Under the pieces are notes generated by a model. That model saw only the letters and a list, made by a program, of their open reading frames with translations. It did not search any database and was not told where the DNA came from. A program made the position numbers and the translations under genes. From Moraxella sp. VT-16-12 (lineage in GTDB: Bacteria; Pseudomonadota; Gammaproteobacteria; Pseudomonadales; Moraxellaceae), in NCBI RefSeq assembly GCF_002224245.2, contig NZ_NKHK02000004.1:1-64000 (forward strand): 64,000 bases of DNA, given 5' to 3'. How positions within the stretch are numbered: position 1 is the stretch's first letter; every line of letters begins with the position of its first letter. Of the stretch, positions 18,464-58,535 are shown piece by piece.

Positions 18464-19045
18464 ATGATAAAATTGATTGTTGGCTTGGGTAATGTGGGAG
18501 CATCTTATGTAGACACTCGCCACAATGCTGGGTTTTGGTTTGTGGAGCAGTTGGCAGATAAGTTTGGTATTAGCCTAAGTCATGACAAAAAATTTCATGG
18601 CATGGTAGGGCGTGGCATGGTGTGCGGCTGCGATGTGCGTTTGTTGATGCCTGATACGCTGATGAACCGCTCAGGTCAAGCAGTTGCTCCAATGGCAAAG
18701 TTTTATAACATCACGCCAGATGAGATTTTGATAGCTCATGATGAGCTAGATATCAAGGCGGGGTCTATTCGCCTAAAAAAAGGGGGTGGACACGGTGGGC
18801 ATAATGGATTAAGAGATATTGTGCCACACATTGGAGCGGAATTTTATCGCTTGCGTATTGGTATTGGACATCCTGGGCGGGCATCGCAAGTGAGTGCTTG
18901 GGTGCTATCTAAGCCAAGTGCAGATGACCGCACAAGCATAGATAGGGCGTTGGACTGTGGTATGGACGCTTTGGGGCTGTTGATGGCAAACCAAGAACAA
19001 AAAGCGATTAGCTTGGCAAATGGCTTTAAGTTGCCCCAATCATAA
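18464..19045 (+). CDS. pth: Peptidyl-tRNA hydrolase
   Basis: Releases tRNA from peptidyl-tRNA drop-off products. About 193 residues with the family opening KLIVGLGNVGASYVDTRHN (catalytic His in RHNAG), LMPDTLMNRSG, and the GGHGGHNGLRDI block. ATG at 18464 gives the standard N-terminus; a GTG nine bases upstream is possible. Its last six bases overlap the convergent gene at 19040. Confidence 0.95.
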   Translation: MIKLIVGLGNVGASYVDTRHNAGFWFVEQLADKFGISLSHDKKFHGMVGRGMVCGCDVRLLMPDTLMNRSGQAVAPMAKFYNITPDEILIAHDELDIKAGSIRLKKGGGHGGHNGLRDIVPHIGAEFYRLRIGIGHPGRASQVSAWVLSKPSADDRTSIDRALDCGMDALGLLMANQEQKAISLANGFKLPQS

Positions 19046-44014: not shown

Positions 44015-44509
44015 ATGGGTATTTTTAGTTTTGCCAGAGATATTGGCGATAAGATTTTTAACCGCAATAAAAAAGAAGACACGCCTGCCCCAGCACCAGT
44101 TGCCACACCATCTGCCCCTGCCGAGCCAACCGCCCAAGAGATTGCCAATCTGTTGCTTGCTCGTGTGCAAGCCAATGCTCAAATTGACAAGTTGTCAGTA
44201 AACTACAACGGCGATACTGATACTGTGGTATTATCTGGCGTTGCCCCATCACAAGCTGAGCGCGAAAAAGCCATTTTGGCGGCAGGCAATGTGCAGTATG
44301 TTGCTCAGGTAGAAGACAACATCACCGTAGAAGCTCCTGAGCCTGAGTCTCGTTTTTATACTGTCAAATCAGGTGATACACTTTCTAAAATCGCCAAAGA
44401 AATGTACGGCAATGCCAATGAGTACAACAAAATCTTTGAAGCGAACCGACCATTATTATCGCACCCTGATAAAATCTATGTCGGTCAAGTGTTGCGTATC
44501 CCTGCTTAA
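44015..44509 (+). CDS. BON-LysM domain protein (Kbp/YgaU-like)
   Basis: 164 residues: a short N-terminal segment (MGIFSFARDIGDKIF), a Pro/Ala linker, a BON domain (about 45-105) and a LysM domain (about 110-162, YTVKSGDTLSKIAKEMYGNANEYNKIFEANR). E. coli Kbp (YgaU) has this layout and binds K+. No signal peptide is visible, as in Kbp. RBS AGGAG before ATG; terminator follows. Confidence 0.88.
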   Translation: MGIFSFARDIGDKIFNRNKKEDTPAPAPVATPSAPAEPTAQEIANLLLARVQANAQIDKLSVNYNGDTDTVVLSGVAPSQAEREKAILAAGNVQYVAQVEDNITVEAPEPESRFYTVKSGDTLSKIAKEMYGNANEYNKIFEANRPLLSHPDKIYVGQVLRIPA

Positions 44510-44523
44510 TCAGCATTAACAAC

Positions 44524-44552
44524 AAAAGACAAATCTTAGGGTTTGTCTTTTT
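44524..44552 (+). terminator. Terminator of the BON-LysM gene
   Basis: AAAAGACAAA / TTTGTCTTTT with an eight-base loop and T tract. Confidence 0.85.
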
Positions 44553-44576
44553 ATTTGTGCTGTTGATATGACGACT

Positions 44577-44616
44577 AAAAAAACAAAGCCACAAACCTGG
44601 GGGAGCTTGTGGCTTT
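44577..44616 (-). terminator. Strong terminator of the candidate RNA
   Basis: On the minus strand AAAGCCACAA pairs with TTGTGGCTTT across a C-rich 12-base loop, followed by GTTTTTTT. It could also end transcripts from the endonuclease V gene. Confidence 0.85.
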
Positions 44617-44733
44617 ATGGGGAGTGTTGCTACTTGCGTATGTCCTTACTGGCATTCCATAACATCAGCGATTCGTCCTTGCGGCATTCCTACCTAAAAC
44701 TACTAGGTTTTTTTTGCCTGTTCCTGTGCTGAT
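44577..44733 (-). ncRNA. Candidate GGA-rich regulatory RNA (RsmY/RsmZ/CsrB-like)
   Basis: No protein gene fits 44510-44824. On the minus strand a promoter (44740-44768) predicts a transcript start near 44733 and a strong terminator ends it near 44577, giving about 157 nt. Five GGA triplets lie between 44724 and 44643: ACAGGAAC, GTAGGAATG, CAAGGACG, TATGGAATG and TAAGGACA. They include a tandem near-repeat GGAATGCC...AAGGAC. The 5' ATCAGC can pair with GCTGAT at 44664-44669, and ACCTA/TAGGT forms an inner hairpin. Dense GGA in loops is the mark of RNAs that sequester CsrA/RsmA. A plus-strand RNA ending at the weak hairpin 44691-44717 is an alternative. Confidence 0.55.
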
Positions 44734-44739
44734 GGGTGT

Positions 44740-44768
44740 ATTATCTCAAAATCCCAGCACGATGAAAA
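44740..44768 (-). promoter_or_regulatory. Promoter of the candidate RNA
   Basis: Minus strand: TTTTCA, 17 bases, GATAAT. Seven bases further is ATCAGC at 44733, which pairs with a downstream GCTGAT. Confidence 0.5.
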
Positions 44769-44789
44769 GTCGCCAAAATCGTCAATGCA

Positions 44790-44807
44790 TGTAAGCATTT
44801 GCTGACA
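44790..44807 (-). promoter_or_regulatory. GacA/UvrY-like upstream box
   Basis: Minus strand TGTCAG-CAAATG-CTTACA, one mismatch from the palindromic GacA consensus TGTAAG-N6-CTTACA. It lies about 60-75 bases above the predicted start of the GGA-rich RNA, in the gap before the endonuclease V stop. Confidence 0.5.
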
Positions 44808-44824
44808 AACTTAAAATTTGGGTG

Positions 44825-45346
44825 TTATGATGGCTGATTGACCACATTGCGACTTAATCTATCCACTTGCGAGACAATGTTGGGCAAGCGATGAGAGCCA
44901 CAGAGTGTTTTGACAAAGTTTTGGGCGTTATCTATGCCAATGCTGGTAACATACAAAGGGTGTTTGCTTGTGCCACGATGTACCGCAAAACTTTCATCAA
45001 TCTCATAAAAGCGATTTTTGGCGATACCAATGATGGGCGTTGGGGTGGGTAGATGGTCATATAGGTGCTTGCCCAGCCCTGCTTTTTGCCAACCATCAAG
45101 ATAAACATAGCCATCAATGATGATGACATCAAAAGGGTCGTGAATTTGAGCCAGTAGTGCCAGCAAGCAAGGCATTTCTCGCTGATAAAACTGCCCTGAT
45201 TGATAGGGAGCGACATTGGAGATGGTCAGCCGATATTCATTTAAGATGGTGTGTGCCTGCACCCCACAAAAGCGAATGCCAGCAACATGGGCATCAGTAC
45301 CATCAGCACAAGGCTGATAATACACATCTAAAATCAGATAAATCAT
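44825..45346 (-). CDS. nfi: Endonuclease V (compact form)
   Basis: Cuts DNA near deoxyinosine (or RNA inosine). 173 residues, about 50 shorter than E. coli Nfi, with the N-terminal part reduced. The catalytic acids are in place: Asp7 in LDVYY, Glu57 in GQFYQREMP, Asp78 in IIDGYV, and the GIAKNRF Lys motif. The His/Arg stretch after the third acid in Nfi is replaced by YLDGW. It overlaps coaE by four bases. Its stop lies 92 bases above the candidate RNA start. Confidence 0.82.
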   Translation of the reverse strand: MIYLILDVYYQPCADGTDAHVAGIRFCGVQAHTILNEYRLTISNVAPYQSGQFYQREMPCLLALLAQIHDPFDVIIIDGYVYLDGWQKAGLGKHLYDHLPTPTPIIGIAKNRFYEIDESFAVHRGTSKHPLYVTSIGIDNAQNFVKTLCGSHRLPNIVSQVDRLSRNVVNQPS

Positions 45347-57185: not shown

Positions 57186-57200
57186 CTTTTAAGATAAACC

Positions 57201-58535
57201 TTACATCATGGCTTGTTGAGCACTGGCAAGTAAGTCTTGGTATTTGACTTCTTTGTCGGTAACTTTGCCTTGTGATACAAGATATTCTACCACTTGGTCT
57301 TCTAGTACCAAAGACTCAATGCTGGTGCGTTCATTTTGGTTGTTGGTGTAATATTCAATCACCTCAGCAGGGTCCTCATAGTTTTCTGCCAATTCAGCGA
57401 TGAATGAAGTAACACGCTCTTGGTCTACTTTAAGACCTTGTTTTTCAATGATTTGAGTAACCAAGACACCCAAACGTACCGCACGCAAAGCTTGGTCTTC
57501 AAACAGCTCATCGGGCAACATATCTGCCCCAAAGGTTTTTGGGTCGCCACCAAATTGGGCAGCAAAACGTTGAATCATTTGCTGGCGTTGGCGTTCAATC
57601 TCTTGGGTGAGCATGGCTTTTGGCACGTCAAATTCATTTTTTTCTACCAAAGCATCAAATACCGCTTGTTTGATTTGGTTGCGAGCCGCGTTTTTGATTT
57701 CACGCTCCATGTTTTTGCGTACATCCGCTTTTAGTTTATCAAGACCGCCTTCTTTAACACCAAACAGCTCAAAAAATTCTTCGTTTAATTCAGGCAGTTT
57801 TGGTGTTTTAACTTCTTTAACGGTGATTTTAAAATCAGCTTCTTTACCTTGTAGGTTTTCGGCTTGGTAGTCTGCTGGGAAAGTAACTTTGATGGTTTTT
57901 TCTTCGCCAGCTTTCATGCCTTTCATGCCATCTTCAAAGCCGGGAATCATGCGACCTGAACCGATGACCAAGCGAAAATCTTCGGCACTACCACCATCAA
58001 ATTTTTCGCCATCAATAGAACCTTCAAAATCAAAAGTCGCTTCATCACCATCAACAAGCTCACCGTCTTTGGTTTCAAAGGTTTGACGCTGTTTTTGCAG
58101 GTTTTCAATCATTGTATCCACATCTTCATCAGAAACGGTAGCAACCTGACGCTCTACATCAATTTCGCTGACGCCTTTAACTTCTACTTCTGGGAAGGTT
58201 TCAACGGTGGCTTGATAAACCAAAAAGTCATTTTCTAGTTTGACATCATCAATATTAGGCACGCCAACAGCACGCACTTTTTGTTTGTCAATCGCTTCAA
58301 ATACCGTATCACGAATGACATCGTTAATCACTTCTTGCTGAATGCCAGCACCGTATTGGGCTCTGATGTGTGATACAGGCACTTTACCTTTACGAAAGCC
58401 ATCAATACGAGCGGTTTTGGCAAGGCTTCTGATGCGACTTTCTACTTTGCTTTGAATGGTGCCAACAGGAACTTTGACGGTCAATTGAGTTTCTTTGTCT
58501 GAGATGACATTTGCGGTAACGTCTAAATCACTCAT
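57201..58535 (-). CDS. tig: Trigger factor
   Basis: Ribosome-bound chaperone with peptidyl-prolyl isomerase activity. 444 residues: ribosome-binding tail with FRKGKVP near residue 45, an FKBP domain in the middle (GDEATFDFEGSIDGEKFDGGSAEDF), and a helical C-terminal chaperone region. First gene of the tig-clpP-clpX series. Confidence 0.96.
   Translation of the reverse strand: MSDLDVTANVISDKETQLTVKVPVGTIQSKVESRIRSLAKTARIDGFRKGKVPVSHIRAQYGAGIQQEVINDVIRDTVFEAIDKQKVRAVGVPNIDDVKLENDFLVYQATVETFPEVEVKGVSEIDVERQVATVSDEDVDTMIENLQKQRQTFETKDGELVDGDEATFDFEGSIDGEKFDGGSAEDFRLVIGSGRMIPGFEDGMKGMKAGEEKTIKVTFPADYQAENLQGKEADFKITVKEVKTPKLPELNEEFFELFGVKEGGLDKLKADVRKNMEREIKNAARNQIKQAVFDALVEKNEFDVPKAMLTQEIERQRQQMIQRFAAQFGGDPKTFGADMLPDELFEDQALRAVRLGVLVTQIIEKQGLKVDQERVTSFIAELAENYEDPAEVIEYYTNNQNERTSIESLVLEDQVVEYLVSQGKVTDKEVKYQDLLASAQQAMM

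Follow-up and report, generated by a model that had tools for sequence, protein, structure and literature searches.

A putative GacA-activated, CsrA-sequestering small RNA with paralogues across Moraxella

Results and Discussion

A unit of about 157 nt on the minus strand of the genome of Moraxella sp. VT-16-12 very probably encodes a GacA-activated, CsrA-sequestering small RNA resembling RsmY, RsmZ and CsrB. We infer its transcription, its dependence on GacA, the binding of CsrA and an effect on CsrA targets from the DNA of the locus and its relatives (the whole analysed stretch of 64,000 nt is called the window). The strongest evidence for the identity of the unit is a feature absent from the preliminary description, a palindrome resembling the GacA box upstream of the promoter. 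The RNA seems to belong to an uncatalogued family of a known functional kind, outside the Csr/Rsm families of Rfam.

The locus and its neighbours

The features of the locus are as follows.

44577..44733, minus strand: putative sRNA gene, about 157 nt (match to covariance model R1, described below, at 44579-44735, 82.8 bits)
44790..44807, minus strand: GacA-box-like palindrome TGTCAGCAAATGCTTACA, 11/12 to TGTAAGN6CTTACA
44740..44768, minus strand: sigma70-type promoter, -35 TTTTCA at 44768-44763 and -10 GATAAT at 44745-44740
44664..44733, minus strand: helix P1, AUCAGC (44733-44728) with GCUGAU (44669-44664), closing a 5′ domain that holds GGA motifs 1-3
44683..44718, minus strand: helix P2, GGC (44718-44716) with GCC (44685-44683), 93% of cells paired
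44724-22, 44690-88, 44678-76, 44658-56 and 44645-43, minus strand: the five GGA motifs (from the sequence)
44583..44618, minus strand: stem-loop of an intrinsic terminator, then a T run to 44577 (fold and alignment)
44825..45346, minus strand: endonuclease V-like gene, upstream neighbour outside the unit
44015..44509, plus strand: BON-LysM protein gene, convergent neighbour outside the unit

Rereading of the sequence agrees with the preliminary description in its central points: a promoter-to-terminator unit on the minus strand from 44733 to 44577, five GGA motifs within 82 bases, and a strong terminator (15 pairs, with a T run after the stem). The Pfam match of the endonuclease V-like gene (44825-45346) covers only positions 24-129 of a 198-position model.

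The coaE gene is located upstream of the endonuclease V-like gene, on the strand of the unit. The unit is downstream of both genes and on their strand, and no minus-strand terminator-like site was listed in the interval that separates it from the endonuclease V gene. Both observations would suit a reading of the stretch as the 3′ end of a transcript of coaE and endonuclease V, the tail of an mRNA, terminator included, and no independent RNA. This reading is very improbable: a conserved promoter region and a GacA box belong to the unit itself, the search around the relatives turned up no match to endonuclease V, and the majority of copies are situated away from coaE. Specifically, coaE, the sRNA and the BON-LysM gene occur together in the genome of the window (G000) and in G002 and G016, coaE and the sRNA are also found together in G005 and G011, and the remaining sRNA copies sit elsewhere; among the loci searched, an endonuclease V gene accompanies the orthologous sRNA in G000 only.

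The promoter and the upstream GacA box

The sigma70-like promoter of the preliminary description is present as a motif (match 9/12, with a 17-nt spacer and TG ahead of the -10 hexamer), but the quality of the match is by itself at chance level: four matches of 9/12 quality were found in 2.5 kb, compared with 4.4 expected from shuffles. Because equal matches are no commoner than in shuffles, the promoter derives its weight from conservation only. The sequence around it is conserved in the homologues, as is the terminator together with the promoter region present at the window locus.

The palindrome at 44807-44790, TGTCAG-CAAATG-CTTACA, is imperfect, with one mismatch to the Gac box consensus TGTAAGN6CTTACA as printed in an excerpt of PMC11837529. 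The RNA model starts 72 nt downstream of the outer end of the palindrome. Within the window alone, four matches with at most two mismatches compared with 2.6 expected are not unusual. In the whole 2.15-Mb genome, which contains no perfect palindrome, six sites match at 11/12, compared with two matches to the reversed control pattern. Of the six, one precedes the window RNA and another its paralogue, and the remaining four (L203-L206) have no such RNA adjoining. The last of these (L206) is within the window at 57188-57205, a one-mismatch GacA-box-like palindrome (TTTAAGATAAACCTTACA) with no GGA-rich unit adjoining.

Homologues across Moraxella

By DNA search, 14 of 22 Moraxella genomes gave matches, and the genome of the window itself contains a paralogue, G000:C55, with 78% identity. 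The covariance model R1, built from 17 aligned transcripts with the upstream DNA excluded, was then used to search 249 genomes of the bacterial family, and gave 58 matches in 21 of the 22 Moraxella genomes, one to five in each. These copy numbers are lower bounds because of the stricter filters that were applied; a third copy in M. catarrhalis, scoring 40.6 bits, emerged later. The 22nd genome (G007) gave no match in any genus-wide search, including that for csrA, and is probably not readable.

Although the model is blind to the upstream sequence, a GacA box of at least 10/12 is found at -71 to -73 in 55 of the 58 matches. In shuffled 200-nt upstream regions, 10/12 occurs anywhere in 1.3% and 11/12 in 0.06%. 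The three exceptions are G021:C15, with its best site at -97; G013:C65, with 8/12; and one copy on G013:C170, with 9/12 at -73. The second of these has an unrelated 5′ part and may mark a break in the assembly, the draft being fragmented; it was retained in the counts.

Conservation of the GGA motifs across species, on which the preliminary description had staked its proposal, is evident: each of the 58 Moraxella matches contains five to seven, for a total of 318 compared with 158 expected and a maximum of 188 in 500 plain shuffles, counts that are not fully independent since the GGA columns belong to R1.

Paralogous sRNA genes are clustered in some genomes, two or three within about 3 kb (G013:C170 9511-12369, G010:C1 39487-42356, G001:C13 40837-42993).

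GGA motifs of the window RNA

Dinucleotide shuffles of the unit contain on average 1.8 GGA motifs, and five or more in 0.8% of 5000, while plain shuffles attain five in 8.7%. Nowhere else on the minus strand of the window do 82 bases contain five or more GGA. On the plus strand there are two further such places, at window positions 18787 and 20952, and GGA density is therefore weak evidence by itself. That the motifs are a chance cluster in a spacer would accord with a density that alone is only moderately unusual and with a promoter match at chance level, but it is scarcely credible: 21 genomes contain the unit, its helices covary, the GacA box keeps its distance, and both unit and box are conserved in other species.

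Two details of the preliminary description fared less well. The near-duplicate GGAATGCC-N2/N3-AAGGAC block is present in the unit but missing from the paralogue in the same genome (L015), which does not keep it; the block is accordingly considered incidental and was dropped as a meaningful feature. The GGA motifs were described as left in unpaired stretches, and in the predicted ensemble of the window RNA the first three are indeed mostly unpaired, but the fourth and fifth are largely paired: both G residues of the fourth are unpaired at 0.40 and 0.35, and G of the fifth at 0.10. With two 3′ motifs largely paired in silico, accessibility holds only in part for the window copy. Across the R1 family there is a slight excess of unpaired GGA (0.66) over AGG or GAG (0.60).

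Fold and covariation

The pairing of the 5′ end with an internal segment, as originally proposed, appears in the minimum free energy (MFE) fold as the AUCAGC/GCUGAU helix P1, and this helix covaries. The MFE fold as a whole has a modest z-score of -1.45, with 17 of 200 shuffles folding equally well. P1 is paired in 94.6% of cells with double changes in four of its six pairs, and it persists in the variants AUCAGC, AACAGC, AUAGC and ACAGC. The loop of P2 contains AUGGA in many relatives; in many copies the GGA is in the loop and the stems are replaced, as in CCCUG-AUGGAG-CAGGG and GAUAC-AGGAU-GUAUC. An inserted hairpin enlarges P2 in three cases: the copy in the window, the other copy of that genome and one copy of G018.

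The R1 alignment comprises 48 matches, of which 47 are distinct. Pairing holds for 89.2% of its cells, compared with 69.0% when shuffled and at most 47.4% when slid, double changes occur in 16 of 19 pairs, and the covariation score is 0.472 versus 0.142. This alignment was fitted to the structure and so leans towards it, ten of its 19 pairs belong to the terminator, and kinship alone can exceed such shuffles. Alignment A3 was made up of 44 of the 58 R1 matches and three later ones, with near copies omitted (48 rows, one of them a duplicate). From the MAFFT alignment A2, which was not fitted, RNAalifold recovers P1 and the terminator stem, with double changes in seven of 14 pairs, and does not predict P2 as drawn. 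A2 draws on a set of 21 loci minus three enlarged copies (L001, L002, L015) and a deleted copy (L024), and alignment A1 on 20 of the 21, L024 being omitted. On comparison of the aligned copies, both the 5′ closing stem P1 and the P2 hairpin covary.

The deleted copy (L024 or L158, G002:C29:19880-19980) has lost the 3′ strand of P1 to an internal deletion, and is probably a decaying paralogue.

The C-rich stretch ACUCCCCAUAA that precedes the terminator, and the recurrence of a GCAAGUAGCAAAACCCC-like linker in part of the relatives, raise the alternative of a GacA-activated sRNA that acts mainly by base-pairing with mRNA, the linker being the seed and CsrA binding secondary. This alternative is unlikely, for the linker is lost in more distant copies, as opposed to the five to seven GGA motifs in 58 of 58 matches. 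Pairing of the C-rich linker with the region of the fourth GGA shows no conservation (3 of 55 at no more than 0.05).

Perfect GacA boxes as a starting point

In a search conducted in the reverse direction, 33 perfect palindromes were found in 16 of the 22 Moraxella genomes, and none with the reversed control pattern. Comparison of the two listings places 25 of the 33 at 71-73 nt upstream of an R1 match, and three more precede weaker R1 matches (35.5-40.6 bits). Another three, which are orthologous (L195, L197 and L198, in G001, G010 and G013), precede a different short GGA-containing unit with a terminator, recognized by eye, where R1 has no match at E values up to 1. The remaining two (L200, L201) have no such RNA adjoining.

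The unit at L195, L197 and L198 is divergent to a gene that, from its start, we take to resemble aspartate-semialdehyde dehydrogenase.

The wider family outside Moraxella

Outside Moraxella, R1 has 17 matches: ten in g15, which we infer to be the sister genus Acinetobacter, one in g7 and six in g9. The ten g15 matches contain seven to nine GGA and are all preceded by a box of at least 10/12 at -72. In g7 the match (L131) contains three GGA within the bounds of the model and is preceded by a perfect box, at -92. The six g9 matches were rejected as terminator-only, with zero or one GGA and a best box of 7-8/12. Two pattern matches outside Moraxella (L178, L182) were also discarded, having no R1 match at E values up to 1. 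At the level of the order, an E value of 0.001 was passed by two of 293 genomes, both Moraxella, and by none beyond.

A second model, R2, built from the ten g15 RNAs, has matches in 83 of the 249 genomes, all of them g15. The box was inspected at 29 R2 loci, of which 21 are from genomes outside the set used to build R2; in 19 of these 21 it scores at least 10/12 at -70 to -74, and in the other two 9/12 at -71 and -72. The inspected g15 loci contain six to nine GGA. Double changes in the g15 structure affect two of 15 pairs, matched by 13 of 500 shuffles, so that it has little covariation of its own. As R2 finds no match in Moraxella, the link between Moraxella and g15 rests on the R1 matches and on two common features, the 5′ stem and the spacing.

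CsrA, the GacA-like regulator and the kinase

The csrA gene, whose absence would by the preliminary description have refuted the proposal, is present in the genome of the window: its product scores 115.7 bits against an NCBIfam cut-off of 73, is close to solved CsrA proteins and, when aligned to solved CsrA, retains L4 and R44. Among the 22 Moraxella genomes csrA was found in 19; it was missed in G007 and in two drafts that are 63% and 86% complete.

Among NCBIfam families, the GacA candidate matches UvrY/SirA/GacA best (245 bits, curated cut-off 280) and the kinase candidate matches BarA best (538 bits, curated cut-off 890); both matches are full-length or nearly so, and both are below the curated cut-off. 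The BarA/GacS-like hybrid kinase (L101:926-3784 on G000:C43, outside the window) has the domain order HisKA-HATPase-REC-Hpt. The BarA-type sensor domain sCache_4 (PF09984) was found in none of the 22 Moraxella genomes; for this reason the kinase was traced through its Hpt domain, and it may sense something else. The signal that drives the Gac system of Moraxella may thus be a different one. GerE and Hpt domains occur in 21 of the 22 Moraxella genomes each, counted as domains and not as GacA or GacS as such.

The fixed-distance GacA box, together with the GacA-like regulator and the BarA/GacS-like kinase encoded in the genome, corroborates the assignment to the RsmY/RsmZ/CsrB type of architecture. 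The apparent resemblance covers the features that can be tested by sequence, the identities of GacA and GacS being below curated cut-offs.

Relation to known systems

The covariance search with the Csr/Rsm models of Rfam, suggested in the preliminary description, gave no match. At gathering scores Rfam identifies only tRNA in the window; at 44400-44950, with E values up to 10, it lists unrelated families below gathering scores and no Csr/Rsm family; and on 18 homologous loci, with E values up to 1, it finds only unrelated matches below gathering scores and no RsmX, RsmY, RsmZ, CsrB or CsrC. Given these results, the RNA is not assigned to any catalogued Csr/Rsm sequence family.

Pseudomonas RsmX, RsmY and RsmZ are, according to portions of PMC7911923 and PMC2375449, short RNAs that contain multiple GGA motifs, follow a GacA palindrome and occur as several paralogues in a genome, all of which likens them to the Moraxella RNA. 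The latter differs in having no Rfam match and a conserved 5′ stem of its own, CAUCAGC/GCUGAU. CsrB and CsrC are longer RNAs with many more GGA sites. The CsrA sponge logic of CsrB and CsrC in Escherichia coli, under BarA/UvrY (PMC8639471, in part), is alike, whereas the Moraxella RNA lacks the Rfam match.

For Acinetobacter ADP1, sRNAs that regulate RsmA were predicted by machine learning at two loci in one strain, as given in sections of PMC5568370, the main text of which has no occurrence of Moraxella. Those predictions concern the same bacterial family and are of the same kind as ours; set beside the g15 loci by description only, they are probably of the lineage of the g15 RNAs. In a passage of PMC12442408 an RNA of A. 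baylyi is referred to as CsrB-like, with Kulkarni 2006 as the source. A passage of PMC11472050 cites seven sRNAs of A. baumannii that are conserved in further Pseudomonadales, M. catarrhalis among them. The available portions of PMC2266756, PMC8895709, PMC11472050, PMC6650576, PMC3976366 and PMC5538643 describe no Csr/Rsm RNA in the Moraxellaceae, and no report of a Csr/Rsm-type sRNA in Moraxella is among the matches listed from the open-licence literature (titles and the openings of abstracts).

Proposed mechanism and significance

In the proposed mechanism, the BarA/GacS-like hybrid kinase would drive phosphorylation of GacA, and phosphorylated GacA would bind the palindrome about 72 nt upstream and activate the promoter. 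In the 5′ domain closed by P1, the RNA of about 157 nt would expose GGA motifs both in a hairpin and where the chain is unpaired; additional motifs would follow past P1, ahead of the terminator. These sites would bind CsrA dimers, titrating CsrA off its mRNA targets and altering their translation, and how much CsrA could be titrated would depend on copy number, two in this genome and as many as five in relatives.

We lean towards a broader view in which Moraxella and g15 would possess a CsrA-sponge family of their own that the Csr/Rsm models of Rfam do not see, which would have expanded in Moraxella to as many as five copies, with clusters, in genomes of 1.5-2.8 Mb. Its members would be nearly the sole direct targets of GacA (31 of 33 perfect boxes are 5′ of such units, three of them by eye), under a kinase whose sensor is not of the BarA type.

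The Gac/Csr switch of Moraxella has lacked an RNA arm, which this unit would supply; the genus includes pathogens of humans and cattle, M. catarrhalis among them. The loci, their fixed promoter architecture and the covariance models open the pathway to direct tests and could be the starting point of a new Rfam family, and the one to five paralogues per genome offer a natural series for asking why sponge RNAs multiply.
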